Assembly: GCA_013001295.1 (NCBI GenBank)
Contig: JABDMW010000028.1
Coordinates: 1 to 64,000 of the forward strand
From: Hyphomonadaceae bacterium
Lineage (GTDB): Bacteria > Pseudomonadota > Alphaproteobacteria > Caulobacterales > Maricaulaceae
Length of the DNA stretch: 64,000 bases
Reading direction: 5' to 3'
Shown: positions 16,108 to 30,823 of the stretch, piece by piece
Layout: each line of letters begins with the position of its first letter
Numbering within the stretch: the first letter of the stretch is position 1
Notes under the pieces: model-generated
What the model was told of the DNA's origin: nothing
Seen by the model: only the letters and a program-made list of their open reading frames with translations
Databases searched by the model: none
Program-made: the position numbers and the translations under genes

Positions 16108-16935
16108 TTAGTCGCTCATCGCTTCCATATTGGCTTCGGCGCGTTGAACCGCTGCTTCAAAGCGTTCTTCGGCGGAGGCGATGTTTTTCTTGGGGTCTTG
16201 ATAATAGGCGGTCATTTTCATCAAACGAAGGAAAGCCCTATTGAGGAAACGACCTCCGAATTTCATGGGCCGATCAAAATCAAACAAGAGAATGACCCGT
16301 TCTTCATCGGTATCATTCCACACTTCGTGTTCAAACGTGTCGTCAAACGTGAATATCTCGCCCTCACGCCACGGCGTGATCACATCATCGACGCGGATGC
16401 GGCACTTCTCATAGTCTTTAGGGATGATCAGCCCCAAATGTGTGCGCAGAATGCCTTTGGTCACACCTGTGTGGGCAGGAATGTGGTATCCGGGGGATAA
16501 AATAGACAGCATCGCTATCTGTAAATTCGGAACTTTTTCGAGCAGACTGGAGGTCTTGGGCATAATCGCGGCGTTTTTCTCGACCTTTTCCCCAAATCCG
16601 AACAGAACAAATGTTTTCCAGTTTCGGCCTTTGGCCAATCGATATTGGTCTGGAGAAATATCCTGAAAACCCGGGATTTCCTCTTTGAATTTCATGACGT
16701 CACAGGCTTCGGATTCGATCACTTCCCAATTGTCGACGAATTCCTGCAAAAAAGGAAAATGATCAACAGACACATGGGGCGTGTTTGGAACCAATGACTG
16801 CTTCGCCTGAAATTTCGCAATACCGCGCACCAGTTTTTTGCCGGTCTTTTTGATGAAGCGTCGACGAAACCCGGATATTTCCTTGGGCCGTTCCGGCTTC
16901 ACTGTCTCATCAGAATTTATTTTAGCATTTGCCAT
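16108..16935 (-). CDS. Aspartyl/asparaginyl beta-hydroxylase-family (LpxO-like) dioxygenase
   Basis: The 275-residue protein has the double-stranded beta-helix of Fe(II)/2-oxoglutarate oxygenases: HIPAHTG, HLGLIIP, then REGEIFTFDDTFEHEVWN and an RVILLFDF strand. This is the Asp/Asn hydroxylase family, which includes LpxO, the enzyme that 2-hydroxylates a lipid A acyl chain. The basic N-terminal stretch (GFRRRFIKKTGKKLVRG) could bind membrane lipid. It is the last gene of the ceramide synthase operon, sharing TAATG with the CFA-type gene. I infer that it hydroxylates an acyl chain of the sphingolipid; a lipid A role is the alternative. Confidence 0.85.
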   Translation of the reverse strand: MANAKINSDETVKPERPKEISGFRRRFIKKTGKKLVRGIAKFQAKQSLVPNTPHVSVDHFPFLQEFVDNWEVIESEACDVMKFKEEIPGFQDISPDQYRLAKGRNWKTFVLFGFGEKVEKNAAIMPKTSSLLEKVPNLQIAMLSILSPGYHIPAHTGVTKGILRTHLGLIIPKDYEKCRIRVDDVITPWREGEIFTFDDTFEHEVWNDTDEERVILLFDFDRPMKFGGRFLNRAFLRLMKMTAYYQDPKKNIASAEERFEAAVQRAEANMEAMSD

Positions 16936-18149
16936 TATGATCTCAATGCGTTTTCAGCTTCAAACATATAATCGCGGGTAATCGGGACGCCGTCGACCTT
17001 TTTTACCATCTGTATCTGGAAATTCATGTTCTTGCTGTACAGGAACGAAAACTCACTAACGATCAGATAGAATTCCCACATACGGCAAAACCGCTCATCC
17101 ATCATAGAGGCCACTTTGTCGCGGTTTTTCTGAAAGCGCTTATCCCACTCCAGAATTGTTTTCCCGTAATGCAAACGCAGGATTTCCATATCACTGATCC
17201 AAAACCCGGACTTTTCAATTTCCGCGACGGTTTCAGAGACCGCGGGCGAGTACCCGCCCGGGAAAATATATTTGCGGATCCATGCGGCCGTTGATCCAGG
17301 CCCCCCGCGTCGTCCAATGGAATGCAAGAGAAAACATCCGTCATCAGACAAAAGTTCGTACGATTTTTGGAAAAACTCGGGAAAATGCCCGACGCCCACA
17401 TGTTCGAACATGCCCACGGACACGATCCGGTCAAACGGACCTTTGAGTTCCCGGTAATCCTGAAGTCGAATGTCGACTTCGTCTTCAAGACCTTTTTCTA
17501 TAATACGTTCCTGAGCAAGCGCGTGTTGTTGTGTAGATAACGTCACTCCGGTAACATGAACATCACAATGTTCGGCCAAATATAATGCCATGCCGCCCCA
17601 CCCGCACCCAATATCCAAAACTCGTAGCCCCGGTTTCAAATTGAGCTTAGCGGCGATATGGCGTTTCTTGGCCAGTTGCGCATCTTCAAGGGTCATGTCA
17701 TCGTTTTCGAAATAGGCGCAGGAATACTGCATATCGTCATCCAAAAACAGCTTATAGAACTTGTTTGAGAGATCGTAATGGTGCTCCACATTTTTTCTGG
17801 ACGCGGATTTTAAATTACGTTGGTGAAATCTTTTGATGCGCTTGTAAAAAGCGCGCAATCTCTTCTGATGCCCCTGACCGCGCAGGTATTGCGCGTTCAT
17901 CGCAAATACGGTCAGGAAATCCCGTATCGTGCCATCCTCAACCGTTAGCGTGCCGTTCATGTAGGCTTCACCGGCTTTAAGCTCGGGGTTGAGAAACAGG
18001 CTTCTGTGCAGCTTCTTATCGTGCAGTTTGATCGTCGCTGACGGGCCGTCACCGCCCGGGCCGAAAACATGAGACAGATCATTTGCGTCAATAATCGTCA
18101 ACTCACCGACTTTCACAAACCGGTGCATCATTTTACTTAGCAGGCGCAT
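16935..18149 (-). CDS. cfa: Cyclopropane-fatty-acyl-phospholipid synthase-family methyltransferase
   Basis: The 404-residue protein has an N-terminal lipid-binding domain, a HHYDLSNKFYKLFLD motif and the S-adenosylmethionine loop VLDIGCGWGG, then VTGVTLSTQQ and EHVGVGHFPEFF, all typical of the CFA/mycolic methyltransferase family. The known reaction adds a methylene group across a cis double bond of a membrane acyl chain. It sits between the HAD gene (one base away) and the hydroxylase gene (1-base overlap) in the bCerS operon, so the acceptor may be an unsaturated sphingoid base or N-acyl chain rather than bulk phospholipid. Confidence 0.92.
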   Translation of the reverse strand: MRLLSKMMHRFVKVGELTIIDANDLSHVFGPGGDGPSATIKLHDKKLHRSLFLNPELKAGEAYMNGTLTVEDGTIRDFLTVFAMNAQYLRGQGHQKRLRAFYKRIKRFHQRNLKSASRKNVEHHYDLSNKFYKLFLDDDMQYSCAYFENDDMTLEDAQLAKKRHIAAKLNLKPGLRVLDIGCGWGGMALYLAEHCDVHVTGVTLSTQQHALAQERIIEKGLEDEVDIRLQDYRELKGPFDRIVSVGMFEHVGVGHFPEFFQKSYELLSDDGCFLLHSIGRRGGPGSTAAWIRKYIFPGGYSPAVSETVAEIEKSGFWISDMEILRLHYGKTILEWDKRFQKNRDKVASMMDERFCRMWEFYLIVSEFSFLYSKNMNFQIQMVKKVDGVPITRDYMFEAENALRS

Positions 18150-18150
18150 A

Positions 18151-18834
18151 TTATTCCTTATCCCAGTCTTGCACGTTTAATCCGTGTTCATTGACGCATT
18201 TGAGCAAACGCGGACTCGGATTGACCGCTATTCCTACATCAGCCCAGTCAAATATATCAAGGTCGGATCGACTGTCTGAATACACTGTGATGTGAACATT
18301 TTCGCGATTGAAACCGGGTTCATTTTCCAAATATTCGCGCACCAGTTTCAGCTTATTGGGACCATAGCAATTGACGCCGCCCAAACGCTTTTTAAGGCGC
18401 TGATTTTCATCAAAAGCCGTCGCGGTGCAAATCCGGTCGTCGATATTCAAATGATCGGCAATGGGATGCACAATTAAATCAACAGCGGCACTGGCGATCA
18501 TGATGCGATCGCCTGCATTTCGGTGATGCTCGATAACTTCGCGCGCTTTACGACGCAGGCCGTTCTGAACTTCGTTATCAGCAAATTCCTGAGCCAATCG
18601 TTCCAGTTCCGAACGTGACCGACCTGCTATGGTCCACTGCATCATCCGCTCTTTCACCCGCTCACGCGGACCCAATCCCAACATATAATGGGCTTGGGTG
18701 AAGGCTGTGCTCAAGGCGAAAGGCGCCCATTTCAATGGCTGATCTTTGACGATACCCGTCACGAACCGTCCCCAAGTTCCCTTTTGCGTCAAGGTTTCAT
18801 CGAGATCAAATATGGCAATCCGGTCTTTTTTCAT
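18151..18834 (-). CDS. HAD-IB family phosphatase
   Basis: The 227-residue protein has the catalytic motif IFDLDETLTQKGTW, motif II IASAAVDLI and motif IV YSDSRSDLDIFDWA, placing it with SerB-like and phosphatidylglycerophosphatase-C-like HAD-IB enzymes. It overlaps the flippase stop by four bases (ATGA) and precedes the CFA-type gene by one base. Its place among lipid genes suggests it removes a phosphate from a lipid or head-group intermediate; this is inference. Confidence 0.87.
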   Translation of the reverse strand: MKKDRIAIFDLDETLTQKGTWGRFVTGIVKDQPLKWAPFALSTAFTQAHYMLGLGPRERVKERMMQWTIAGRSRSELERLAQEFADNEVQNGLRRKAREVIEHHRNAGDRIMIASAAVDLIVHPIADHLNIDDRICTATAFDENQRLKKRLGGVNCYGPNKLKLVREYLENEPGFNRENVHITVYSDSRSDLDIFDWADVGIAVNPSPRLLKCVNEHGLNVQDWDKE

Positions 18835-20207
18835 TCTGGCACTCTGTCTGCGGAGGTCGATGTCTTCAAGACTTTTTTCGCCAATATAATAGCCAGGAGA
18901 ACAGCAAAAAGATTGCCAAAAATCGCTGCCCAGCCGGGACCGGTTTTTCCTAAGATATTGCTGAGGGCGACCACCAGGCCAATGTAAATCACGAGGCCAA
19001 AAAACCGGGCAAATATTGCATGCCCGGGGCGCCCGGCCGCGTAAAACACAGGGTATAGAGGTGCGGCGACGCCCATAAAAGCGGCGGAGATAACCAATAG
19101 TACAGCCAGCGGGACAGCGTCTTCATATCCAGGTCCGAATGTCATCGGAATAACTGAAGGCCCGAGGAATGCGGGCAAGAGAGCCAATACGAGTCCACCT
19201 GATAACATCATGGCGCCCGTTTTCACTACCAAGCGCCAAATTTTGTCGCCATTGCCCCTGGCCATCATGCGCGCATATTCAGGGTAAATGACACGGTCAA
19301 GCAGCAGATATCCCTCTGACAACAATTTTGCGATATCGTCGGCGACTTTATAGGCACCGACATAGGCTGCCCCAAATATCGGCATGACGATTAAGACCGG
19401 GAGGTGAGTTGTTCCCGTCGCCAAAGAAGAATCTATATTGGCCTTCCAGACAAACCCCCAAATGCCTTTGCGGGGCGCGGATAAGCTGGGCCATTGTCTA
19501 AATAACCCTTTTAGTAATTTGCGCTGGCGTAATTCCAGAATTGCGAACAATGGTAAGACCACGTAGGCGATAAATGAGCCCACAAACCAAGCTAAAACAA
19601 ACCCAATCAAACCGAGCCCGCTCGCAATCGCGATGACGACCCCGATCAATCGGAAAACCGGCATTACCAAAGTTTGAATGGCCAATGGCAAAAATTTATC
19701 AAAAACCCTGAGGAGTCCCGTCGAAGCACCACCCTGATGTACAAGGATAAGGGTGCAGTAAGGTATCCCGAGTTTCACGATATTTTCGACGCTTTGTGTT
19801 TGCGCTTCGCCGGTGAATGCCGGCAATAAAGGCAAAAAGTGCCCGATCAACAACAAGCCCAGAACGGCCAGAATGAATGCTGCGACTGCACCGACGAAAT
19901 CCAACGCAATGCAAAAGCGGGTGAGTTGAGAAAGCCGCTCACCATCCCTCGCTTCCACATCCGGAGTGCCGTACATGATCATGGCTTGCCAGGATTGAAA
20001 TGTCGCGACTTCTGCAAAAAGAAGCATATAAGCGTGCAAAAATAGCAATAGTCCGACATCAGCCACTGGCAGTGTTCGTGTTGTTAAAACCAATGACACA
20101 AGGCCGATAACAGCGGCCGCGGCTTTGGCGCCAACCATCAAGCCGGTGTTACGCGCAACTCGACTGCCGACTGTTCCATTTTCAGAGATGCTGAGATCTT
20201 CGCTCAT
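18831..20207 (-). CDS. Polysaccharide/lipid flippase of the MOP (Wzx/MATE-like) superfamily
   Basis: The 458-residue protein has about twelve to fourteen hydrophobic helices arranged as in Wzx-type O-antigen flippases, beginning SRVARNTGLMVGAKAAAAVI. Such proteins move lipid-linked sugars or lipids across the inner membrane. No glycosyltransferases accompany it, which is unusual for Wzx. It is third in the bCerS operon, between a nucleotidyltransferase and a HAD phosphatase, so I infer that it flips a sphingolipid or its head-group carrier. Exact substrate unknown. Confidence 0.82.
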   Translation of the reverse strand: MSEDLSISENGTVGSRVARNTGLMVGAKAAAAVIGLVSLVLTTRTLPVADVGLLLFLHAYMLLFAEVATFQSWQAMIMYGTPDVEARDGERLSQLTRFCIALDFVGAVAAFILAVLGLLLIGHFLPLLPAFTGEAQTQSVENIVKLGIPYCTLILVHQGGASTGLLRVFDKFLPLAIQTLVMPVFRLIGVVIAIASGLGLIGFVLAWFVGSFIAYVVLPLFAILELRQRKLLKGLFRQWPSLSAPRKGIWGFVWKANIDSSLATGTTHLPVLIVMPIFGAAYVGAYKVADDIAKLLSEGYLLLDRVIYPEYARMMARGNGDKIWRLVVKTGAMMLSGGLVLALLPAFLGPSVIPMTFGPGYEDAVPLAVLLVISAAFMGVAAPLYPVFYAAGRPGHAIFARFFGLVIYIGLVVALSNILGKTGPGWAAIFGNLFAVLLAIILAKKVLKTSTSADRVPE

Positions 20208-20214
20208 CTTTAGG

Positions 20215-20976
20215 CTAAGCTTCCTTGGAAAGAATCGACTCGACCAAGATCAAATCAGATGGCTTGTCGACATCAATGGCAGCTTCGGCGAATGGCATTA
20301 GTACAGGTTTAGCGGAAATTCCGAGTTTATCTGACACGTGTTGAAACGCGTTGTCCAAGGTCAGGCGACCAGTCGCATATTTCAACAACATCCCGATTCC
20401 GAGCCTTCGGGCAAGCTTGAGTGGTTGCTTGCGATCATGTTGCGCCGATTGCCAAAACCGGATCGCCTCAAGGCCGCGCGCATTTCGGATATAGAATAAA
20501 TTGCACCCCGACACGCTTCGATCCGCAAATTTTAGATATGTCCGTTTGGTCTCGGGATAAGCGAGTTGAATTGTCGTTTTTTCGGCTAACCCCAGCGCGA
20601 AATCCACGCCGCTTGCATCTGCTTCTGTAACGAAGTGGTCGACCATTTCAGCCGTTAACAAAGCATGATCACAGGTCGTCACGATAAATGGATAGGGAAT
20701 GCCATCCTCAGCAGCGACGACAACGGAGCTGGCCGGGCCACCGGCAGACGGACTTTGATTTAACGGCGCGTCGACCAACCCCTTATCGATACCGCTGATC
20801 CAATAGGGAGATTGCGCCGTCGCGCTTTGATCAAGTGCATCAAGAACATATTCTATCATCGGCTTACCAATGACCGGTAGAAGCGCTTTCCACTGAATGC
20901 CGGCATTTGCACACAGCGGATCAATAACACCTTTGCGTTGGCCGGCTAATATCAGGACGTTGGTTTTTGATCCCAT
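20215..20976 (-). CDS. NTP-transferase (MobA-like) family nucleotidyltransferase
   Basis: The 253-residue protein begins with the nucleotidyltransferase signature LILAGQRKG...DPL, followed by a K-A-L-L-P-V-I-GKPMIEYVLDAL segment, typical of enzymes joining NTP to a phosphorylated sugar or alcohol. A TTCDHALL motif near residue 100 supplies the metal-binding aspartate. It is not MobA itself, which is at 40 kb. It is the second gene of the bCerS operon (eight bases after it). It could activate a head group, for instance as a CDP- or UDP-derivative. Confidence 0.83.
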   Translation of the reverse strand: MGSKTNVLILAGQRKGVIDPLCANAGIQWKALLPVIGKPMIEYVLDALDQSATAQSPYWISGIDKGLVDAPLNQSPSAGGPASSVVVAAEDGIPYPFIVTTCDHALLTAEMVDHFVTEADASGVDFALGLAEKTTIQLAYPETKRTYLKFADRSVSGCNLFYIRNARGLEAIRFWQSAQHDRKQPLKLARRLGIGMLLKYATGRLTLDNAFQHVSDKLGISAKPVLMPFAEAAIDVDKPSDLILVESILSKEA

Positions 20977-20984
20977 AGCGCGGC

Positions 20985-22133
20985 CTAATGCAGATCTTTT
21001 TTGAAAATACGATAGGTCTTATACAATTTGCCCTGCCCCAATTTGATAATTCGGATCATGCTTTTATTGGACTCGAGAATCCAGGACATCTCGACGGTGT
21101 GATATCCGCGATCAAGAGCTTGTTTGAATATATTGGCGCTGAGCGCAGCCGCCATGGCCAATCCCAGCTTGGTCTTTTGATATTCCTTTTTCACACCCAT
21201 CAGTAAAATTCGACCCGATTTTACTTGCTTTATTTTCAGTCGATACAATAGTTTCAACCACCCAAATGGGAATAGTTTTCCGTCCAGTCCATGAGCTGCC
21301 TCATTAACATTTGGCACCAGCAAAGCGAATGCCGCTGGCTTCCCTTCAACTTCAACGACCCAGAAAAACTGTTCGACAATGACGGGTTTAAGGTCATTGG
21401 CAATATGGGTTATTTGTGCGTCTGTAAAAGGAATAAAACCCCAATTATCAGACCAGGCATCATTAAACACAGTCATCGCTGTTTTCACTTCATGCATGAA
21501 GTTTTTCTTATCCATGTGCCTGATTTTTGTTGTTGAGTCGGCCTCCACAATATCGACCATTTTCTGTACGATTTCAGGATGTGGATAGCTGTCCGGAATA
21601 TGGGCAATATAGGCTTGAAGATCGATTTCTTTCACATATCCACAGGCCTCGACATATTCTTGTGTTTCCGGGCGGCCGTACGGCATCATCAGCATAGGCG
21701 GCGTGTCAAATCCGCTGATCGGCTGCCCTAGTTCTTCATTGGACGAAAAGTTAAGCGGTCCGACAATTTTTTTAAGTCCCCGCTCCCTGATCCAAGTTTC
21801 TGCAGCATTCAAAAGCGCGCTAACAATGGTCTGGTCCGGTTCCGTATCCAGATATCCGAAATGCCCGGTATCATCTTTATAATGCTCCAGATGATTGTTA
21901 TTTTTGATGGCCGCAATTCGCCCAACGGTTTTGCTATTTCTTTTCGCCAAAAAGAACTGAACTTCGAGACCTTTCATGCCCGGGTTTTTCTTGGGATTTA
22001 TCTGATCAGCGCGCTCCATTCTTAAGGGAGCCCGCCAGTTTTCATCCTGCCTGTAGAATTCATATGGAAATTCAAGAAACTGCTTTTTAAGCTCTGGCGT
22101 GTTCACAGGGTGAATGGAAATTTCCGAAGACAT
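20985..22133 (-). CDS. bcerS: Bacterial ceramide synthase-like GNAT-fold N-acyltransferase
   Basis: The protein (382 residues from ATG 22133, preceded by AAGGT) belongs to the long GNAT-like family seen as YghO-like proteins, with motifs YRQDENWRAPL near the N terminus, VGRIAAIKN, KIVGPLNFSSNEELG and a second GNAT-like half (SGRILLMGVKKEYQKTKLG). In Caulobacter a GNAT-type gene close to spt encodes bCerS, which N-acylates the long-chain base. Here it heads a six-gene minus operon and lies next to the spt-acp-cerR-acs genes. Homology to bCerS is inferred from length, fold and position, not from an alignment I could run. A GTG start at 22157 is the alternative. Confidence 0.75.
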   Translation of the reverse strand: MSSEISIHPVNTPELKKQFLEFPYEFYRQDENWRAPLRMERADQINPKKNPGMKGLEVQFFLAKRNSKTVGRIAAIKNNNHLEHYKDDTGHFGYLDTEPDQTIVSALLNAAETWIRERGLKKIVGPLNFSSNEELGQPISGFDTPPMLMMPYGRPETQEYVEACGYVKEIDLQAYIAHIPDSYPHPEIVQKMVDIVEADSTTKIRHMDKKNFMHEVKTAMTVFNDAWSDNWGFIPFTDAQITHIANDLKPVIVEQFFWVVEVEGKPAAFALLVPNVNEAAHGLDGKLFPFGWLKLLYRLKIKQVKSGRILLMGVKKEYQKTKLGLAMAAALSANIFKQALDRGYHTVEMSWILESNKSMIRIIKLGQGKLYKTYRIFKKDLH

Positions 22134-22392
22134 TGAACAGACCTTGATAACTTTCACTTCAACCGCTTATGCGCGTTTTATTTGGTGTTCTTTTTGGGCA
22201 CAATTTGTTTATTATTCAACTGTTATGTTGGAAGCGACAGCGGGAAGAATCTGAAATGGTTGGATGTGCAGCGACACCTTGTCTTTATTATGAGGACATC
22301 GTATTGCAATCCACACGTATTCTTCCCGGAATTATATTAAAACGCGGGGGGATGTTTCTGGACAGCAATCAACATTCTCAGATCTGGTAAGT
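22134..22392. promoter_or_regulatory. Shared divergent promoter region of two sphingolipid operons
   Basis: This 259-base non-coding stretch separates the divergent bCerS and LptF-like operons, so it must contain both promoters. It has an AT-rich part around 22160-22230. I could not pick out convincing -35/-10 pairs or an operator. A 73-codon open frame inside it lacks a ribosome site and looks spurious. Confidence 0.5.
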
Positions 22393-23604
22393 ATGGGACA
22401 ACTCAATACATATTTGCTCAGACGTGCCTTCACTTCGATTGGCGGATTGGTCCTGTTTGCCCTCGCGGTATTATTGCTTGAACGCATACTTCGTATTTTT
22501 GAAATTGTCTCCAGCTCCACGCGGCCTGCAAATGATGCATCGCAGATGGTCGTCAATCTTCTTCCCCACTATCTCGGCATCGCCATCCCTGTCGCGCTGA
22601 TGCTCGGAACGATCATGACGATTGACCGGTTTAGCCGGTCGAGCGAACTGACATCGGCCTTCGGGTCCGGGATATCGCTCTTCCATATGACGAAACCCTT
22701 CCTCCTCATTGCAATTATTCTCTCGGGCTTGACCGTTTTTATTGAGGGGTATTTTCAACCCGTTGGTCGTTACGGCTACCGGGAAGTGGTGCATAGCGTT
22801 CAACAAAGATCATCCACGGCGGCCCTGAGCGAAGGGAAATTCATCAGTGTTCGCGATACCACATTTTACCGAGGCACAGATGATAACGATACGGAAAGCG
22901 GATCGATATTTATTCTTGAAAAGTTGAAAGACGATGCGATGCGTATCACGTCTGCCAAACGCGGCGAAGTTATCGTCCGCGAAGAAAGCGGTGACCCGGT
23001 TCTTCAACTTGAAAACGGACGCGGTTTTATCGTCACACCGGAACGCAACATCACAGGCCAGCTAAGCTTTGAAGCCAGCGCCATGGTCGGGCAATTGGAC
23101 ACGTACCGTTTTCGCTCGCGCGGTGAGGATGCGCGTGAAATGACGACAATGGAGCTGATACGCAACCGCAAAGGTGAAACGCGTCCCAACCTGTCTGTAA
23201 ATGCGAACAACGCTGCACTGCACCTTCGTGCTGCGCGCGCCTATTTGCTTTTGCTCCTCCCTTTCATCGCCGTTCCTTTTGGCATTAATTATGGCCGCAA
23301 ACCGTCTTCTGCAGGCATATTCGTCGGAGTCGTATCCCTATTGACCTTGCAAAAAGCATTAGAATTTGGACAAAGTCTCGGCGCTAAAGGGACCATTGCG
23401 CCGTGGATGGGGATTTGGCCTTTGATGGGGATTGTGACGCTTTCCGCGATCATTATTTTCAGACACAGCGCTTATAAAATGGGCCAACCGCCGCTCTCTA
23501 TAATGTCGACAATTTTTGAAGATGTCCTGAAGGATATCCGAAGCACCTTGCGCGCACTATTTCCGTCCCTTGGCGCGGCCCGTGATCGCGGTCAACAATC
23601 ATGA
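22393..23604 (+). CDS. lptF: LptF/YjgP-family permease
   Basis: The 403-residue inner-membrane protein has the LptF/LptG plan: three N-terminal helices (about residues 12-35, 50-80, 95-115), a periplasmic beta-jellyroll (about 130-275) and three C-terminal helices. LptF and LptG with the ATPase LptB pull lipopolysaccharide out of the inner membrane and push it along the periplasmic bridge. The neighbours here are sphingolipid genes, not pepA or lptD, so I infer a paralogue devoted to sphingolipid export. It overlaps the LptG-like gene by four bases (ATGA). Confidence 0.85.
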   Translation: MGQLNTYLLRRAFTSIGGLVLFALAVLLLERILRIFEIVSSSTRPANDASQMVVNLLPHYLGIAIPVALMLGTIMTIDRFSRSSELTSAFGSGISLFHMTKPFLLIAIILSGLTVFIEGYFQPVGRYGYREVVHSVQQRSSTAALSEGKFISVRDTTFYRGTDDNDTESGSIFILEKLKDDAMRITSAKRGEVIVREESGDPVLQLENGRGFIVTPERNITGQLSFEASAMVGQLDTYRFRSRGEDAREMTTMELIRNRKGETRPNLSVNANNAALHLRAARAYLLLLLPFIAVPFGINYGRKPSSAGIFVGVVSLLTLQKALEFGQSLGAKGTIAPWMGIWPLMGIVTLSAIIIFRHSAYKMGQPPLSIMSTIFEDVLKDIRSTLRALFPSLGAARDRGQQS

Positions 23605-24665
23605 TCCGGTTATCCATTTATATGATAAAGACGTTTGTACTGAGTTGGTTGACTGTCACATTCGGTTTCCTTGTTCTCGTCGGTCTATTTGACGCTTTAG
23701 CCAATGGCGGCGAAATCATCAGTGGCGATCGGGGCTTCATCGCGACTTTCGAGTACATGATATATCGTGCGCCCGTAATCTTTGACCGCGTATTACTGTT
23801 CACGGTTATGGTCGCCATGCTCCTCACCTATGTAAAACTCATTCGCCAGCATGAGTTGGTGTCTTTATTAGGATTTGGCCTTTCCGTACCCCGACAGATC
23901 GCCATGTTGACACCAGCCGTCGTTGGAGTGACGATGCTTTCCATAACATTTATCAATACAGCCATGCCACCTGCTGTCCGTTCGCTACAGGCCTGGGGGA
24001 TCGGCGAGTACAAGCGCACTTCCATAAGTGAAGAAAAGCCATTGTGGCTCCAAGACGGAAATCGCATTATTAAAGCGGCAGGTCGCCCCAATATGCGAAC
24101 CCTGACAAACTTGCAGTTTTTTGATCAGGAAGAAAACGGCGACATTTCCATCATCAGCTGGATTGACCGTGCGGACTATTCACCGGATGGATGGGTGTTA
24201 AAAGGCGTTTCCCGATTGGCCACGGGTGATCGTTTTACGCCGGCACCATTATCGGTTTGGAGCACTGAACAAAACCCCGAAAGCATAGCGAAATTGGCGG
24301 CTGACCCGCGCGACCTTTCGCTGAAAGATATGCGATTATTCCGAATTGAAGGAAACTCTGGGTCGAAACCGAGCTTCGCATATGGATTCTGGCATTTGCA
24401 CCGACTGACCAGACCTCTCGCGGCGTTTGTTCTCTTAATGTGCGCAGTGCCTATTATGCAAAGAACGGGACGGGAAGAATCCGGCGATACAGCCTTGATC
24501 ATCGGGATTATATCCGGCTTCGTCTATTTGATCATTGATGGTGGATTGTCGACTTTTGCCGTCTCGGGGACGCTACCGATTGGTTGGGCCGTCGGATTCC
24601 CAATTGCACTTTTCGCTTTGATTGGCGGGTTTTTGTGTCTTAAGTCTGAATCTTTACGACTGTAA
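23601..24665 (+). CDS. lptG: LptG/YjgQ-family permease
   Basis: The 354-residue partner has the same fold: N-terminal helices (for example VLSWLTVTFGFLVLVGLFDAL), a jellyroll domain (about 120-255) and C-terminal helices ending in a short tail. The cytoplasmic coupling region lies near RQHELVSLLGFGLS, which in the family contacts LptB. It is translationally coupled to the LptF-like gene and followed six bases later by the lipid kinase. No LptB, LptC or LptA gene is in the window, so the ATPase would be shared or elsewhere. Confidence 0.85.
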   Translation: MIRLSIYMIKTFVLSWLTVTFGFLVLVGLFDALANGGEIISGDRGFIATFEYMIYRAPVIFDRVLLFTVMVAMLLTYVKLIRQHELVSLLGFGLSVPRQIAMLTPAVVGVTMLSITFINTAMPPAVRSLQAWGIGEYKRTSISEEKPLWLQDGNRIIKAAGRPNMRTLTNLQFFDQEENGDISIISWIDRADYSPDGWVLKGVSRLATGDRFTPAPLSVWSTEQNPESIAKLAADPRDLSLKDMRLFRIEGNSGSKPSFAYGFWHLHRLTRPLAAFVLLMCAVPIMQRTGREESGDTALIIGIISGFVYLIIDGGLSTFAVSGTLPIGWAVGFPIALFALIGGFLCLKSESLRL

Positions 24666-24671
24666 CCATTT

Positions 24672-25622
24672 ATGCCAAATGCCAAGACAGCCTTTTTCTA
24701 TAATCCGTTGAGCCATACCGTGGCATCGCGCGGATCAGTATTGGAAAAAGTATCGGACGCACATGATGTAATGAAGTTCAAACTCGACGACTTCGAAAAA
24801 TTGAACACCTATGTAACGCAGGCGCTAGACAACAAAGTTGATACGATATTTATCGAAGGTGGCGACGGCACTATTCAAGGCGTCATCACTGAAACGATTT
24901 TACAATTGGACAATTCAACGCCACCTCCGAATTTTGTTTTATTGCCGGGCGGGATGACCAATCTTGTGGCCGCCAATATTGGCTTGAAACGCCCATCGGT
25001 CGACAAAATCACGTCGATCATGCGAAATCCGAACAGTCGCAAGTCGACCTCACTGCCGCTATTGAAAATCGAACAAGACGGCGGCGCCAACTTACATTTC
25101 GGCTTTCTTCTTTCGACCGGCGCGCTCCCTGCTGCCACGCGATATTGCCTTGACGAAATACATACGAAAGGTATCGGTGGATCAGCTGCTGTCGGAACCA
25201 CATTGTTCAAAGTCCTGTTCGGGCCCAAAAAAAAGCGCCGTGAGATCATGGCGCCAACACCGATCCAGCTGCAGTTGGGCGATAGAACCATTGAGGGCGA
25301 ACACTTGACGAGTGTGGCGACCACGCTTCCGAAACTTATTATCGGGATAAATCCGTTCTGGGGCGAAGACAATGCGCCTGTTCATTTGACATATGCTGAT
25401 CCGAATGTTCGCCATAAATTCATCAATATCGCCCGCATGTTTAAAAAGCAGCAATCCAGTCGGGCGCGCGCCGCGTTGGAACGTGACGGGTTTCATAGCT
25501 GGAATATTGAATCCGCGACACTGGTTCATGATGGCCCCTTGGTCCTGGACGGTGAAGAATTACCTCTTTCGACCAAGCCGATGAGACTGTCCACTACTGA
25601 TCCGCTGACGTTTTTGAGCTAA
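24672..25622 (+). CDS. Diacylglycerol/ceramide-kinase-family lipid kinase
   Basis: The 316-residue protein has the DAGK catalytic-domain motif EGGDGTIQG (GGDGT at residues 63-67) and LLPGGMTNLVA, the nucleotide-binding signatures of the DAGK/sphingosine-kinase fold. A soluble peripheral enzyme is expected. In Caulobacter a kinase of this type beside the sphingolipid genes phosphorylates ceramide (CpgB); its position directly before the TAM41-like gene and spt makes ceramide the likely lipid substrate here. Diacylglycerol remains possible. Confidence 0.85.
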   Translation: MPNAKTAFFYNPLSHTVASRGSVLEKVSDAHDVMKFKLDDFEKLNTYVTQALDNKVDTIFIEGGDGTIQGVITETILQLDNSTPPPNFVLLPGGMTNLVAANIGLKRPSVDKITSIMRNPNSRKSTSLPLLKIEQDGGANLHFGFLLSTGALPAATRYCLDEIHTKGIGGSAAVGTTLFKVLFGPKKKRREIMAPTPIQLQLGDRTIEGEHLTSVATTLPKLIIGINPFWGEDNAPVHLTYADPNVRHKFINIARMFKKQQSSRARAALERDGFHSWNIESATLVHDGPLVLDGEELPLSTKPMRLSTTDPLTFLS

Positions 25623-25625
25623 TCG

Positions 25626-26561
25626 ATGCCGGATAGAAAAGACAAAATTTTGCGTATATTGGCAAGTGAGCAACTCAAACCTTCACAAAATGTCATCAAC
25701 ATGTGCGACAAAATCAAAACCCGTCACGAGGGCCGCGTTCAAGCATTTGTCTATTATGGCTCCTCATTGCGGGCCATGAATGATCCAGAGAAAATGCTCG
25801 ATTTTTATGTGCTGGTTGATAGCTATCGCAAAACTCATAAATCGCCGCTTCGTGTGGTGATCAATTCCATGCTTCCCCCGTCAGTCTACTATATGGAAAA
25901 TGCAAACGCTGACGGCAGTATTTCCAATTGCAAATACTCGATAATTTCACTGCCGGCTTTTGAGAAAAAATGTTCTGGTAAAGCATTTCTCTCCGTTGTT
26001 TGGGGCCGTTTTTCCCAACCCTGCGTTTTACTCTTCCCGAAATCAGAGTCGATTAAATCGCGAATACAATTGGCCCGAAGTCGCGGCATAAGACACGTGG
26101 CCAATCAAACCGCCCCTTTATTCACTGGTAAAACGGATGCCATTAAGTTTTGGGCCCGTGGCTTTATGGAAAGCTATAAAACCGAGTTGAGACCGGAAAG
26201 CTCCGAGGCCCGATCAGAAGAAATCGTCGCGAGATACGAAAAACGATACGGTGCTTTGATGGAAACAATATATGGCAAGCCGGATGTCCAAAACTTGTTT
26301 GCTATGCCTGTAGCAAGTTCGTTCAATCAAATGTTGTGCAAACTTAAGTGGTTTGGTCGACGCCTGTTGGGCAAGCCGGTCGCCGCAATCAGGATACTCA
26401 GCAGTGCCGTCACCTTCGATGGCGGATTGGATTATGTCTTGCATAAGCTGAAAAATCATTCTGGGGTCACAATTCCTGTCACGGAAGGACAGCGACGTCA
26501 CCCGATTTTATGGTCACCGGTTTTGGCGTGGCGGTTATACCGCAAAGGCGCGTTTAAATAA
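25626..26561 (+). CDS. TAM41-like putative lipid nucleotidyltransferase
   Basis: The 311-residue protein carries a nucleotidyltransferase-like signature, YYGSSLRA (GS at 45-46) followed by MLDFYVLVD (Asp59, Asp65), which resembles the GS...DxxxxxD region of mitochondrial CDP-diacylglycerol synthase TAM41. No membrane helices are evident. It follows the lipid kinase by three bases, so the product of that kinase is the obvious substrate. I infer a role in activating or capping ceramide phosphate; in Caulobacter a nucleotidyltransferase gene near spt is needed for ceramide phosphoglycerate. Family assignment is by motif only. Its stop abuts the opposing spt stop with no spacing. Confidence 0.65.
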   Translation: MPDRKDKILRILASEQLKPSQNVINMCDKIKTRHEGRVQAFVYYGSSLRAMNDPEKMLDFYVLVDSYRKTHKSPLRVVINSMLPPSVYYMENANADGSISNCKYSIISLPAFEKKCSGKAFLSVVWGRFSQPCVLLFPKSESIKSRIQLARSRGIRHVANQTAPLFTGKTDAIKFWARGFMESYKTELRPESSEARSEEIVARYEKRYGALMETIYGKPDVQNLFAMPVASSFNQMLCKLKWFGRRLLGKPVAAIRILSSAVTFDGGLDYVLHKLKNHSGVTIPVTEGQRRHPILWSPVLAWRLYRKGAFK

Positions 26562-27791
26562 TTATTCGGCCGCAGCTAAAACTTCCGCGACCCGCGCATT
26601 CAACTCATCGGAGTTTTCACTCATTTCCTTAAAGACCGACAAAATATGGTCGATATCTTCCTTTGTGTGCGCAGCAGAAAGGCTAATGCGCAGGAGTGAA
26701 CTTGATTGCGGCGTTCCCGGTGGGACGGCTAAATTCACATAGACGCCGTTTTCCAACAACCAATTCCATTCAGAAGCCGCGATAATTTCATTCGGCCTTC
26801 TGACCGCGATAACCGGGCTTGGATCCGCACAAAGTTCATATCCCAGTGCGGCCAGACCCGCATGTAATTGCTCAGCCCGTTCAGCGAGATTGGTTCGAAG
26901 TTCAGGTTTTTCTGCGATTTTATCAAGTGCAGCGCGTGCAGCCGCAACGTTTGACGGCGTCGGAGATGCCGTGAACATATAGGCACGCATTGCGGTTCGG
27001 GTAATTTCAAATCCTATATGCTTGGAAAGGCAAAACCCGCCAATCGAGGCAAGGCTTTTAGAAAATGTGCCACTGATAAAATCAACGCGGTCGAGCACGC
27101 CTTGTTCTTCAGCCAATCCACAACCGGTCGGCCCGAATACGCCAAAGGAATGGGCCTCATCGATGTAGAGATAGGCGCCATGTTTTTCACAAACATCAGC
27201 AAATTCGGCAATTGGCGCCCGATCTCCGAACATTGAATACAGGCCTTCGATCACCACCAATGCGATACCGTCTTCAATCTTCCCTTGGCGGGTGAGGCGT
27301 TTATCGAGATCTTCGGGCGAATTATGGCGAAAACGGATCGTCGGCGCGGGACTCAACCGGCATCCATCAATAATGCAGGCATGGGCATCCGCGTCGATGA
27401 AAATAAAGTCTTTCGGCCCCGCCAGGGTTGCGATTGCCGCCAAATTGGTTTGATACCCTGTAGAAAACACAATCGCTGAAGCCATATTGGTGTGATTTGC
27501 CAACGCATTTTCAAGATCAACATGCTCTTCATAGGAACCGTTGGCAATCCGGCTCCCGGTTGTACCGGTACCGTGGTTTTTAATGGCCTTGATCGAAGCA
27601 TCCATGCAGTCCGGGTCGAATGTTAGGCCGAGATAATTGTTCGTTCCTGCCAGGACTATTTCCCGGTTTCCGATCCGACCACGCGTCGCATTCATGATGT
27701 CGTCAAATTTGACCCCGAATGGATCAACACCCAACTTATGGACTGTCTCCAATCTGGATTTCATCGGGTCAAATTTGTCGAAAATATCCAT
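26562..27791 (-). CDS. spt: Serine palmitoyltransferase (alpha-oxoamine synthase)
   Basis: The 409-residue PLP enzyme condenses serine with a fatty acyl thioester to 3-ketosphinganine, the committed step of sphingolipid synthesis. It has TNNYLGL near residue 50, GSRIANGSYEEH, IDEAHSFGVFG (211-220) and the PLP lysine in GTFSKSLASIGG (Lys245). Alternatives in the same family (BioF, HemA, Kbl) are unlikely because a dedicated ACP, reductase and acyl-ACP synthetase precede it in the same operon, as in Caulobacter. It is the last gene of that operon. Confidence 0.92.
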   Translation of the reverse strand: MDIFDKFDPMKSRLETVHKLGVDPFGVKFDDIMNATRGRIGNREIVLAGTNNYLGLTFDPDCMDASIKAIKNHGTGTTGSRIANGSYEEHVDLENALANHTNMASAIVFSTGYQTNLAAIATLAGPKDFIFIDADAHACIIDGCRLSPAPTIRFRHNSPEDLDKRLTRQGKIEDGIALVVIEGLYSMFGDRAPIAEFADVCEKHGAYLYIDEAHSFGVFGPTGCGLAEEQGVLDRVDFISGTFSKSLASIGGFCLSKHIGFEITRTAMRAYMFTASPTPSNVAAARAALDKIAEKPELRTNLAERAEQLHAGLAALGYELCADPSPVIAVRRPNEIIAASEWNWLLENGVYVNLAVPPGTPQSSSLLRISLSAAHTKEDIDHILSVFKEMSENSDELNARVAEVLAAAE

Positions 27792-27799
27792 CGTTAGCC

Positions 27800-28054
27800 C
27801 TATTGCTCGGAAATAAGTTGTTTGACTGCATTCACAAGTTCACCGACCGTTTTAATGTCGCTGACCATCTCCATGGGGATAGAGATATCGTAATGATCTT
27901 CCAGTCCCATTATCAGATCAAATACCGCTGTTGAATCGACGCCCAAATCGGTGACAATGCCGCTTTGACGCGTAATTGCCAATTTTTTCGGGTTGTAAGG
28001 AACAAGGAGTTCGCAAATTTTATCAAATATTTGCTCGTGGTCTGTGGCGCTCAT
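27800..28054 (-). CDS. Acyl carrier protein dedicated to sphingolipid synthesis
   Basis: The 84-residue acidic helical protein has the phosphopantetheine attachment serine in DLGVDSTAVFDL (Ser41). It is distinct in sequence from the housekeeping AcpP type and lies eight bases before spt, matching the AcpR gene of Caulobacter. It probably carries the acyl chain made available by the downstream-encoded synthetase and presents it to serine palmitoyltransferase. Confidence 0.9.
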   Translation of the reverse strand: MSATDHEQIFDKICELLVPYNPKKLAITRQSGIVTDLGVDSTAVFDLIMGLEDHYDISIPMEMVSDIKTVGELVNAVKQLISEQ

Positions 28055-28073
28055 GAATTGCTCTGTACTTGGG

Positions 28074-28988
28074 TCATTTCGGGTCTAGTGTTTTTTTCAA
28101 GGCCAAGGAAAAATCTGTATCCGATTGTAAACCAGCCTCAACGCTCCAGTCGTCATAGAGAAATTCGCCAAGTTTGCCTAGTGTTAAGTGCCCTTTTCCT
28201 GTGATTGCTTTTGTGAGCGTGGTGAGGCCTGCAACAGGGTATAATAGTGACAACGGCAGAGGAATTGCTTTAACTTCTTCACCCCTTGCCGAGGAACAGG
28301 CCGCTGCGAAGTCTGGCCAACTGATCGCAGCGCGCGTCGACGGCGATACCGTCTCACCATCGTGAAGTTGCGATACGCAAATCTTGGCCAAGAATTCTGC
28401 CAAATCATCCACATGGATGAGACTTAACAAGCGTTTTTGCCATCCTCTCCCGCCGGGCGCCGGTAAAAAGCCCCGGCGAATACATGCGTATATGGGTGCT
28501 GTCGCGACATCCTCGGCCCCGAATACGGCGGGGGCGCGTACAATAACGGATTTATCCTTTGGGAAACTGTTTTTCAGAGAGTACTCACCTTCACGTTTCG
28601 ACCATGCATAGAGTGATAAATCCGGGGCTTTTGCCGCCAAACTGGAAAGATAGACGAACCGCCCGACATTGGCTTTGTGGGCTGCTCTGGCAAGCGTATC
28701 GACAGCTATGCTGTTGACCTCCTCATAGTCTGACTTGGTTCGCGCCGTGATCAGACCAGCCATATGTAAAACAACATCAGCCCCGTCGACCAATTCGCCG
28801 AGGCCTTCCCAATCAGCAAGTCCCCCTTCTACCCAATAAGAATTTCGGTGCATGACCATTTTGTGCCGCGATCCACGACGGACCAGGCACCGAACCTGGT
28901 AGCCTTGTTCTAAAAGAAGATCGAGGACCCCACTGCCAACAAAACCGGTGGCACCCGTAAGCGCGATGACGGTTTTTCCATTGGACAT
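28074..28988 (-). CDS. cerR: NAD(P)-dependent epimerase-fold reductase, CerR-like
   Basis: The 304-residue extended SDR has the Rossmann motif TGATGFVGSG (residues 11-20), the catalytic serines in YLSSLAAK and the YxxxK pair YAWSK (Tyr127, Lys131). In Caulobacter the epimerase-like CerR reduces the 3-keto group of the sphingolipid precursor, and the operon position between the acyl synthetase and the ACP is the same. Generic nucleotide-sugar epimerase is the alternative but no sugar genes are near. Confidence 0.85.
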   Translation of the reverse strand: MSNGKTVIALTGATGFVGSGVLDLLLEQGYQVRCLVRRGSRHKMVMHRNSYWVEGGLADWEGLGELVDGADVVLHMAGLITARTKSDYEEVNSIAVDTLARAAHKANVGRFVYLSSLAAKAPDLSLYAWSKREGEYSLKNSFPKDKSVIVRAPAVFGAEDVATAPIYACIRRGFLPAPGGRGWQKRLLSLIHVDDLAEFLAKICVSQLHDGETVSPSTRAAISWPDFAAACSSARGEEVKAIPLPLSLLYPVAGLTTLTKAITGKGHLTLGKLGEFLYDDWSVEAGLQSDTDFSLALKKTLDPK

Positions 28989-28994
28989 TTGGAT

Positions 28995-30752
28995 TTAGGC
29001 TTTTTTGGCGGAGTCCACGACTTTGATGTGTTCGTCTTCCTGTAGATTGATGATCGCGCCATTGAGAAATTTTTCGCGAACGCGGGCCCGGCTCAGTTTG
29101 CCGGAAGATGTTACGATCATGGAACCACGCGGCACAAGGATAAGCGTAACCGGTGCGCCGATTTCAAGGCGAATAGCACCGCTGACAACGGCGTGGATTT
29201 CAGACAATAATTTTTGGTCGCGTGTCCGACATTCAAGCAAAAGTATGATCTCTTTTTCATCACCGCTACCACCAACTGCGAAAGAACATGCACGTCCACA
29301 TCTGCTGGTCGCGGCTGCCTGAGCCGCCCATTCGATATCTTGCGGCCAGATATTGCGGCCATGCCACAAGATTAAGTCCTTAAATCGGCCCGTTACGACG
29401 ACCTGGTCATCAAGCCAATATCCGAGGTCACCTGTATCCAGGAATCCATCTTCAGTAAATGCAGCCTGCGTCGCGAGTGCATTATGGAAATATCCCGGTG
29501 TGACACTTGGCCCTTTAATGCAGATTCGCCCAACTTGACGCTGCCCGAGCACTTCGCCTTCCATACTGCGGATTTCAAGCACGTGATCAGGAATAATTTT
29601 TCCGCAGGCAATAAATGTCCGCTTGTTTTCTTCGGCTGTTAGATCATTGGCTGGTGCAGCTTCTCCTGTACGCTCCAATTTTTCCATATCGACCGTATCT
29701 TCCAACAATCCCTGGCGCGGAGGCGAGAATGTCGCGGCCAATGTAACTTCAGCCAAGCCGTAACTCGGCACAAAGCTTTCGATTTCAAAGCCGAATTTTC
29801 CAAACGTATCAACGAAAGCTTTCAAGGGTTCGGGTTGAACCATGTCACCGCCAATACCAGCGCCGCGCCATGATGACAGATCGATAACCCGGTCTTCCCG
29901 CCAACGCCGTACGCAAAGCTCGAACCCAAAGGTCGGGCTAAATGATAACGTACCTCCATAATCACTGATCAGTTGCAGCCAGGTCAGTGGTCGCCGCGTG
30001 AAATCTTGCGGGTCAAGGTAATCAACGCTCATCTGCGACATCACGGGCGTGATCATAAAGCCAACCAGGCCCATATCATGATATAATGGCAACCAAGACG
30101 TACACCGGTCATTTTCGGTAATCTGAAGTCCACCCACTCCGATCTGTCCAAAACAATTGGCTGTGACCGAAGCCTGGGTTCCGATTACGCCTTTTGGCGA
30201 GCTGGAGCTGCCCGATGAATATTGAATATAACAAGGACCATCGGCGTCATGAGGCCTTAAGAAGTCCTGTTTGGGTAAGAGTTTGACATCCTCAAAGCTG
30301 ATGACGGGCACATCATGATCGTTCAACGCGGAACTCATGATGTTTTCCATGCTTTTTGGTGTCAACAATGCGGAAAAGTCACCGGTATCAGCCATGCGTT
30401 GGAGTTGGCGCTCATAACTACCGCGTCCGCCCAGTGTCACAGGGAGCGGCAATGGTGCCGGGATAAGTCCAGCGTATTGGCAGGCAAAGAACATGATCGC
30501 AAAATCGGGGCTCGTGACCGCGCAGATACCGATCCGGTCGCCTTTGTCCGTTATCCCGACCAATCGATGGGCCATCTCGACGGCCTGATCGCGTAACTCT
30601 GTAAAAGTTAAAACGCTTTTAAGTTCACCTTTACCGGTGAAAAAATTAAATCCGGAATTTCCTTGAGCGGCGTATTCCAACCCATCAATCAACGTTTCAA
30701 ATTTTCCCGGAATGTATGGCTGAATTCTCGTTGTGGGAGTTGGTGAATTCAT
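28995..30752 (-). CDS. Fatty acyl-AMP ligase / acyl-ACP synthetase of the sphingolipid operon
   Basis: The ATG at 30752 follows a strong GGGGGA site; an upstream TTG at 30785 is less likely. The 585-residue adenylate-forming enzyme has the AMP-binding loop YSSGSSSSPKGVIG, the DTGDLGYW motif and FKDLILWHGRNIWPQDIE near the C terminus, where ligases of the FAAL branch have this form. It should activate a fatty acid and load the dedicated ACP. It heads the acs-cerR-acp-spt operon, with intergenic gaps of 6 to 19 bases. Confidence 0.9.
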   Translation of the reverse strand: MNSPTPTTRIQPYIPGKFETLIDGLEYAAQGNSGFNFFTGKGELKSVLTFTELRDQAVEMAHRLVGITDKGDRIGICAVTSPDFAIMFFACQYAGLIPAPLPLPVTLGGRGSYERQLQRMADTGDFSALLTPKSMENIMSSALNDHDVPVISFEDVKLLPKQDFLRPHDADGPCYIQYSSGSSSSPKGVIGTQASVTANCFGQIGVGGLQITENDRCTSWLPLYHDMGLVGFMITPVMSQMSVDYLDPQDFTRRPLTWLQLISDYGGTLSFSPTFGFELCVRRWREDRVIDLSSWRGAGIGGDMVQPEPLKAFVDTFGKFGFEIESFVPSYGLAEVTLAATFSPPRQGLLEDTVDMEKLERTGEAAPANDLTAEENKRTFIACGKIIPDHVLEIRSMEGEVLGQRQVGRICIKGPSVTPGYFHNALATQAAFTEDGFLDTGDLGYWLDDQVVVTGRFKDLILWHGRNIWPQDIEWAAQAAATSRCGRACSFAVGGSGDEKEIILLLECRTRDQKLLSEIHAVVSGAIRLEIGAPVTLILVPRGSMIVTSSGKLSRARVREKFLNGAIINLQEDEHIKVVDSAKKA

Positions 30753-30823
30753 GGAAATGTCCCCCAGAATACTAGGTATTGTCAAAAAGCTGACTTATTA
30801 TCTTATTAAACGTGAAAGTAAAG

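Follow-up and report, generated by a model that had tools for sequence, protein, structure and literature searches.

A probable Caulobacter-type phosphosphingolipid locus, without CPG2 genes and with candidate acyl-chain tailoring genes, in a Hyphomonadaceae bacterium

Here we report the analysis of a 14-gene sphingolipid-type locus of a Hyphomonadaceae bacterium, located in a stretch of 64,000 nucleotides (GenBank assembly GCA_013001295.1, contig JABDMW010000028.1, positions 1 to 64,000, forward strand; hereafter the window) with a G + C content of 49.5%. In our numbering, in which G, C and L precede genomes, contigs and loci, the window is contig C46 of genome G000. The original prediction, made from the sequence alone, had described three tight operons at 16108-30752 with internal gaps of -4 to +19 bases. 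All 14 open reading frames (ORFs) are present in three blocks, the gaps are exact and the left end stands, but the right end lies at 30785, position 30752 being an internal ATG of the acyl-AMP ligase gene. The ORFs follow one another on the minus, plus and minus strands in a 6-4-4 layout (Table 1). The left block (six genes, minus strand, 16108-22157) has gaps of -1, +1, -4, +7 and +8, the central block (four genes, plus strand, 22393-26561) gaps of -4, +6 and +3, and the right block (four genes, minus strand, 26562-30785) gaps of +8, +19 and +6; 235 bp separate the divergent left and central blocks, and the central block meets the convergent right block at a junction of 0 bp. A scan of the sequence for promoter and terminator patterns remained at chance level (18 vs 17.6 and 19 vs 17.5), so that spacing and conservation are the grounds for the operon structure.

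The predicted gene families were upheld by Pfam and NCBIfam profile scans and, in the case of the "TAM41-like" gene, which lacks Pfam support, by fold comparison. All five ceramide genes (aasR, cerR, acpR, spt and cerS) are present, with cerS, cerR and acpR identified by family and synteny, and the assignment as a locus for ceramide synthesis, an anionic headgroup and export has good support from synteny and from the published genetics of Caulobacter (PMC11324152, PMC10331486, PMC12275187; articles are cited here and below from parts of their text). The locus is real, conserved and of the sphingolipid type. It probably represents a Caulobacter-type phosphosphingolipid locus for ceramide phosphoglycerate (CPG), in a variant that is without the genes for CPG2, the form with a two-unit headgroup, and has gained acyl-chain tailoring.

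Table 1. Features of the sphingolipid-type locus in the window, in order of position.
Feature	Coordinates	Strand	Evidence
LpxO/OlsC-type 2-oxoglutarate Fe(II) hydroxylase, predicted 2-hydroxylase of ceramide acyl chain	16108..16935	-	PF05118 171.7 bits (gathering score 22.6)
Cyclopropane fatty acid (CFA) synthase family, predicted to act on unsaturated sphingolipid chains	16935..18149	-	PF02353 323.3 (gathering 27)
HAD-IB phosphatase, proposed analogue of CC_1158 metallophosphoesterase	18151..18834	-	TIGR01490 119.1 bits (cut-off 98.3)
Polysaccharide-flippase-like membrane protein, CC_1166-like	18831..20207	-	PF01943 25.5 bits, just under cut-off 28.2
CC_1153-like nucleotidyltransferase (NT), CofC/IspD/MobA-fold	20215..20976	-	PF12804 38.1 bits
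bCerS-like GNAT ceramide synthase, GTG start	20985..22157	-	PF00583 35.1 bits; 57 related loci
Divergent intergenic region between left and central blocks, 235 bp	22158..22392	.	DUF2141 gene at this place in many relatives
Second LptF-like permease, LptF2	22393..23604	+	PF03739 186.9 bits
Second LptG-like permease, LptG2	23601..24665	+	PF03739 141.5 bits
CpgB-like ceramide kinase, DAGK catalytic family	24672..25622	+	PF00781 41.0 bits; gene content and neighbours common to Caulobacter-like loci
CpgC, Tam41-fold CTP-dependent cytidylyltransferase, predicted CDP-ceramide synthase	25626..26561	+	
Serine palmitoyltransferase, Spt	26562..27791	-	NF047599 565.0 bits, above curated cut-off 500
Dedicated acyl carrier protein (ACP), AcpR	27800..28054	-	PF00550 34.1 bits (cut-off 20.8); below NCBIfam ACP cut-offs
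CerR-like SDR ceramide reductase	28074..28988	-	PF01370 72.8 bits; synteny
AasR-like fatty acyl-AMP ligase (FAAL)/acyl-ACP synthetase, TTG start, internal ATG 30752	28995..30785	-	NF006624 650.6 (cut-off 600)

The published CPG cluster of Caulobacter crescentus (CC_1168-CC_1152) comprises 17 genes, including five ceramide genes, six CPG/CPG2 genes, and LptC2, LptF2, LptG2 and a flippase with presumed transport functions; CC_1157 and CC_1167 were judged probably unrelated (PMC11324152). To judge from its sequence, the window locus is a relative of this cluster and not a new kind, so that the pathway type is already known. Eleven gene types are common to both (AasR, CerR, AcpR, Spt, CpgC, CpgB, LptF2, LptG2, CerS, the CC_1153-like NT and the flippase), and the order is kept in the right block, in CpgC and the kinase beside Spt, and in NT beside CerS. 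Unlike the C. crescentus cluster, the window locus is without cpgA (CC_1159), cpgD (CC_1152), CC_1158, the DUF2141 gene (CC_1157), LptC2 (CC_1168) and a CC_1167-type gene, carries the HAD phosphatase, the CFA synthase and the LpxO/OlsC-type hydroxylase, and has its flippase in the left block. A genome of the same order (G092; L137 and L143), called Caulobacter-like by its gene arrangement, keeps the gene order of the published cluster, with LptC (PF06835) present, a metallophosphoesterase (PF00149) where CC_1158 would stand and DUF2141 (PF09912) where CC_1157 would stand. In the window, its relatives and Henriciella, LptF and LptG form an inverted pair joined with the kinase and CpgC genes; the pair in L137 is grouped with bCerS and NT. 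Henriciella aquimarina (L011) and Parvularcula (L010, L012) resemble the window in the inverted Lpt pair and in the HAD, flippase and NT genes that follow bCerS; all three blocks are present in L011, spt and cerR in L010, and no right-block gene in the stretch of L012. Unlike the window, these loci have cpgA and cpgD around the HAD gene, and neither CFA nor hydroxylase within the stretch.

The full gene set was found in the same order in five of 12 fetched same-genus loci (L103, L104, L105, L108 and L113), with about 1.8 kb extra between CpgC and spt in L108, a recurrence beyond chance. L114 has all genes but CFA, L112 is without flippase, CFA, LptF and LptG, L107 and L111 show no spt block within the fetched stretch, and L106, L109 and L110 are short contigs. 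A search with bCerS gave 57 related wider loci, 38 of them also with NT, and linkage was tested on the 37 with at least 8 kb on both sides. Kinase and CpgC occurred together in 26 of these, in every case with LptF (26/26) and NT (26/26), and in 20 of the 26 with at least one of spt, cerR and FAAL; kinase and CpgC thus do not usually lie away from spt, contrary to the outcome that would have refuted the original prediction. The additions were restricted among the same 37 loci (HAD in four, hydroxylase in one, CFA in none).

Of the CPG genes, CpgB and CpgC are present by family, synteny and fold, with activities predicted from sequence. The kinase of C. crescentus is a ceramide kinase (PMC10331486), and CpgD is a CTP:phosphoglycerate cytidylyltransferase (PMC12275187) with structures in PMC13228409. 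The conversion of ceramide-1-phosphate to CPG by CpgC is called an unidentified mechanism in PMC12275187, and an activation role was raised from an InterPro domain in PMC11324152. The Tam41 Pfam model was matched by none of 28 CpgC family members, and a sequence search of the CpgC alignment against solved structures returned nothing usable (best E 1.7); the Tam41 fold was recovered by structure comparison, at 14-16% identity to Tam41. CpgC thus has a fold in common with this mitochondrial/bacterial CDP-diacylglycerol synthase, and differs in its expected substrate, ceramide-1-phosphate, from which, together with CTP, we infer that it may make CDP-ceramide. The NT profile matches TTHA0179, IspD, KdsB and 3-phosphoglycerate guanylyltransferase (7p97).

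For the CPG2 genes, Henriciella CpgA and CpgD (L011) were used as queries against 99 genomes including that of the window. In the window's whole genome, cpgA had no match and cpgD gave three hits of generic NTP-transferase level (best 27% identity, E 6e-9), and the locus is therefore not classed as a CPG2 locus. For the same reason the claim of a "complete" pathway is rejected as overstated; the locus also holds no glycerate-joining transferase, and the single LptC match lies elsewhere. Genuine cpgA was found in only two of 14 same-genus genomes (G006 and G009), G005 giving a 76-residue fragment match (E 2e-4). In both (L145 5605-9139; L146 5260-7856), a second flippase and cpgA, then cpgD, are grouped apart from the main locus, with cpgD of G009 split across two contig ends; the separate group suggests a movable CPG2 module. 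Elsewhere in the family, cpgA and cpgD flank the HAD gene in the left block (e.g. L115, L118, L120, L121, L123, L125 and L126), and L117, L122 and L129 have neither within the stretch.

Two points weigh against the CPG reading of the locus. It has no CDP-alcohol phosphotransferase able to join glycerate to activated ceramide, and the retention of NT without cpgA and cpgD is not accounted for, because a C. crescentus CC_1153 mutant still makes CPG (PMC11324152). Three CDP-alcohol phosphotransferase matches in the window's genome, all outside the window and none reaching its NCBIfam equivalog cut-off, are a PgsA-like gene beside uvrC, a 181-aa PgsA-like paralogue and a phosphatidylinositol-phosphate (PIP)-synthase-like gene beside an inositol-phosphate synthase gene. 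The first two stand in tandem at L154 5291-7344 (G000:C3), in the order uvrC, PgsA-like gene, HAD-IIB phosphatase and second, 181-aa PgsA-like gene. The paralogue was considered as the missing transferase; its distribution is suggestive, but it is absent from 11 of 19 bCerS-positive family genomes without cpgA, and so is only a lead. At E <= 1e-20 it occurs in nine of 99 relatives, eight of which are bCerS-positive without a cpgA match (G000, G002, G007, G011, G019, G035, G046 and G055), the ninth (G038, 37% identity) being bCerS-negative. An ordinary CPG2 locus, with the cpgA and cpgD functions supplied by unrelated genes elsewhere and CPG2 or a similar two-unit headgroup as product, would agree with this distribution and with the retention of NT, which is needed for CPG2 in Caulobacter. 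We consider it unlikely, however, since no cpgD-like gene rises above generic level, the paralogue is missing from those 11 genomes, and its carriers belong to just two lineages (g7 and part of g1), which leaves them little independence.

The variant without cpgA and cpgD bears on the phosphatase. All reading frames of 104 sequences were scanned with profiles built on the loci, and matches at E < 1e-15 were tallied on 98 of them (the 57 wider loci, 40 relatives and the window; the extra stretches L143-L148 were left out). Among the 58 loci with kinase and CpgC, 27 have the HAD gene, 27 a metallophosphoesterase, none both and four neither; of the last, L109 and L124 are short contigs, the genome of L135 has the HAD gene in L148, and L023 is an exception. 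Weak matches to the HAD model in L020, L021 and L022 (E 6e-6 to 6e-5; in frames 1.9 to 2.7 kb long) were taken to be generic and excluded by the threshold, without which one locus, L020, which also has the metallophosphoesterase, would count as having both. Neither cpgA nor cpgD was seen within the fetched stretch in 25 of the 58 loci, for some of which cpgA may lie beyond it; 22 of the 25 have a phosphatase (14 HAD, 8 metallophosphoesterase) and 22 have NT. The phosphatase is present in 32 of 33 loci with cpgA. The HAD catalytic residues (D10, D12, K161, D187 and D191) are invariant in 30 sequences. A role of the HAD gene in nucleotide or serine/histidinol phosphate metabolism, with a place in the locus by chance, might be read from its NCBIfam assignment to HAD-IB and from its histidinol-phosphatase and SerB matches (both below cut-offs), but is very improbable given its presence in 27 of the 58 loci, never with the metallophosphoesterase, and the fact that in relatives (L011 and L148, for instance) cpgA and cpgD flank it.

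On the simplest reading, two unrelated phosphatases would do one job and would belong with the kinase and CpgC rather than with cpgA and cpgD; their mutual exclusion and their retention without cpgA and cpgD suggest that the phosphatase step is tied to CPG itself. Hyphomonas neptunium was reported to lack, of the 17 genes, only CC_1158 (PMC11324152). Henriciella and Hyphomonas are both Hyphomonadaceae, and by analogy with the Henriciella locus a HAD gene is a candidate CC_1158 substitute in Hyphomonas. Several observations speak against this placement of the phosphatase. A C. crescentus CC_1158 mutant still made CPG and CPG2, with slightly more CPG and slightly less CPG2 (PMC11324152), a phenotype more in keeping with redundancy, or with a role between CPG and CPG2, than with an essential step that precedes CPG. 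The two phosphatases sort largely by lineage, so that independent swaps are few, the clearest being that of G016 (HAD) and G033 (metallophosphoesterase) in one genus. Within the window, the CC_1158-type profile had no match (the rest of the genome was not searched), and the HAD gene is present instead.

The hydroxylase and the cyclopropane synthase are lineage-specific additions to the locus. They were followed in a family sample of 59 genomes (G000-G058), 27 of which have a strong bCerS match (E < 1e-100). A close orthologue of the hydroxylase (E < 1e-100; 65-74% identity) occurs in 24 of these 27 and in one of the other 32 genomes; the sole carrier without a strong bCerS match (G005) is a 79%-complete same-genus genome in which the gene adjoins a CFA gene, and the three misses (G004, G009 and G053) are genomes in 470, 240 and 130 contigs. 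Orthologues of CFA (at least 60% identity, partial copies counted) occur in 19 of the 27 and in one of the 32. Fisher tests that ignore relatedness give p = 3e-12 for the hydroxylase and p = 3e-8 for CFA, and counted per genus the hydroxylase is found in 6/6 vs 0/13 (p = 4e-5). In the six family genomes with weaker bCerS (g4, g7), neither gene has a close orthologue; CFA relatives of 49-52% identity occur in all six, and hydroxylase relatives of 39-40% in G033 and G046. Outside the family, one of the 57 loci has the hydroxylase (L013, 57%) and none has CFA. Residues H155, H203 and R213 of the hydroxylase are invariant in 20 sequences. In a CFA tree, the locus copies form one clade (17 rows, support 100/99) distinct from second copies in the same genomes, with L174 (G005), which adjoins a hydroxylase gene, counted as a locus copy; counted otherwise, it leaves two changes and no single clade. 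The tree is without L166, L167, L168 and L173, for which the longest frame chosen was not CFA, and without the partial copies of G010, G032 and G053; L175 was likewise left out of use.

Several points stand against dedicated ceramide tailoring. The hydroxylase stays under the cut-offs for OlsC (NF052565, 210.1 bits; cut-off 450) and LpxO (NF033391, 127.5 bits; cut-off 500), and the CFA protein under that of its equivalog NF053839 (562.1 bits; cut-off 600). The CFA orthologue was not found in eight of the 27 locus-bearing genomes, two of them incomplete (G004 and G009), and is therefore optional; and with any match at E <= 0.001 in 94 of 99 relatives for the CFA family and in 58 of 99 for the hydroxylase family, only close orthologues are informative. 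It is thus conceivable, if rather doubtful, that both genes are hitch-hikers acting on bulk phospholipids, or on ornithine lipid or lipid A, and not on ceramide. The CFA family normally acts on phospholipids, its usual substrate, OlsC and LpxO are the nearest hydroxylase families, and the locus CFA may serve all lipids, the window's genome having no other CFA match at E <= 0.001 with the locus CFA as query. Neither hydroxylase equivalog cut-off is reached, however, the locus CFA clade is separate from the second copies in G002, G003, G007 and G011, and the hydroxylase, with its distribution of 24/27 vs 1/32 genomes, is kept in G014 though about 650 kb from the locus. Among the papers listed by searches of an open-licence library, none describes a ceramide-locus hydroxylase or cyclopropane synthase in its title or in the abstract opening shown. 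Cyclopropane sphingoid bases occur in Sphingomonas, and were not found in the literature search. Lipids with 2'-hydroxymyristoyl dihydrosphingosine are reported for Sphingomonadaceae (PMC13318209), and in Caulobacter the amide-linked chain is reported to be hydroxylated by CC_0202 (PMC11324152), an unrelated DesA-type enzyme, so that the LpxO/OlsC-type hydroxylase would be a non-orthologous replacement.

The flippase and export functions of the window genes are likewise predicted. The flippase aligns to that of the Caulobacter-like L143 (27%, E 3.7e-43). The Lpt pair shares PF03739 with LptF and LptG of the lipopolysaccharide (LPS) exporter, and differs in being a second copy below the equivalog cut-offs (TIGR04407, 207.6 vs 230; TIGR04408, 160.6 vs 240), which counts against the assignment. 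The window's genome has lpxC, another, higher-scoring LptF/LptG pair at C37 and, in a genome-wide search, one LptC match only, outside the locus at C18; the window thus supplies the genome with a second pair, to which no second LptC corresponds. A second Lpt system has been proposed for sphingolipids (PMC11324152), and PMC11087976 states that a flippase or transporter was still to be identified.

Taken together, the genes would make a 2-hydroxylated, cyclopropane-bearing CPG that is flipped and exported by the second LptF/LptG pair. The acyl-AMP ligase would load the dedicated ACP, and Spt would condense acyl-ACP with serine; bCerS and CerR, by homology with Caulobacter, where this has been demonstrated, would make (dihydro)ceramide. 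CpgB would phosphorylate ceramide, as does the Caulobacter enzyme, and CpgC, to judge from its fold, may activate ceramide-1-phosphate to CDP-ceramide, to which a transferase outside the locus would join a phosphoglycerate or glycerate unit. The HAD-IB phosphatase may then strip surplus phosphate, as phosphatidylglycerophosphate phosphatases do in phosphatidylglycerol synthesis; its exclusion of the CC_1158 type and its retention without cpgA and cpgD point this way. Family, linkage and phylogenetic profile suggest that the chains receive a 2-hydroxyl group from the LpxO/OlsC-type enzyme and cyclopropane rings from the CFA-type enzyme, and the flippase and second LptF/LptG would carry the lipid to the outer membrane with Lpt parts borrowed from the LPS machine. 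We put forward the joint reading tentatively, as possible rather than probable: CPG built on phosphatidylglycerol-like logic (kinase, Tam41-type CDP-ceramide synthase, phosphoglycerate transfer and an interchangeable HAD-IB or calcineurin-type phosphatase), with two enzymes dedicated to ceramide, an LpxO/OlsC-like 2-hydroxylase and a cyclopropane synthase, that in this family would tune the product further into an outer-leaflet lipid resembling lipid A.

The locus is flanked on the left by a gene for an HTH regulator, a phosphoglycolate-phosphatase-like HAD gene and then glmU-like and ribose-5-phosphate isomerase genes, and on the right by a NAD-glutamate dehydrogenase gene; for its boundaries, conservation across relatives carries more weight than the identity of the neighbours. 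The HTH_3-family gene (15477-16103) is convergent to the hydroxylase gene, with 4 bp between the ends, and is a possible regulator of the locus. DUF2141 (PF09912), which the window locus is without, occurs in 49 of 98 bCerS loci (e.g. L104 9821-10366), including 14 of 39 that show neither kinase nor CpgC, and among 14 control genomes only in Caulobacter vibrioides. The only DUF2141 match of the window's genome is at C52 (L152 16439-17338), is N-terminally extended and has 34% identity to a same-genus locus copy. It stands together with the PIP-synthase-like CDP-alcohol phosphotransferase gene (below cut-off) and the inositol-1-phosphate synthase gene (L152 14180-17338; G000:C52), about 8 kb from an NTP-transferase/GDPD fusion, in what is possibly a second lipid-headgroup locus. 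The CC_1167-type protein of 374 aa (L143 6061-7185; L122 near 6750), with a sub-threshold glycosyltransferase match, was found in seven of the 104 sequences. One of these is the family locus L122 (G021), which has neither cpgA nor cpgD; a CC_1167 mutant was moderately cofit with spt (0.57), although the gene was called probably unrelated (PMC11324152).

The CPG2-less variant, the mutual exclusion of the two phosphatases, and the hydroxylase and CFA additions appear to go beyond the published Caulobacter account in the parts cited here. CPG-type sphingolipids partly allow survival of C. crescentus without LPS (PMC12275187). The gene losses and the phosphatase exclusion bear on an open step of this pathway: loci that naturally do without cpgA and cpgD set the CPG genes apart from those for CPG2 and bring the phosphatase and NT forward as candidates. 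For CpgC, the Tam41 fold suggests a concrete chemistry that can be assayed. If the phosphatidylglycerol-like reading is true, it would be a mistake to confine the phosphoesterase, as published, to the last step of CPG2 synthesis. The hydroxylase and CFA genes are candidates for the tailoring of ceramide chains in bacteria.

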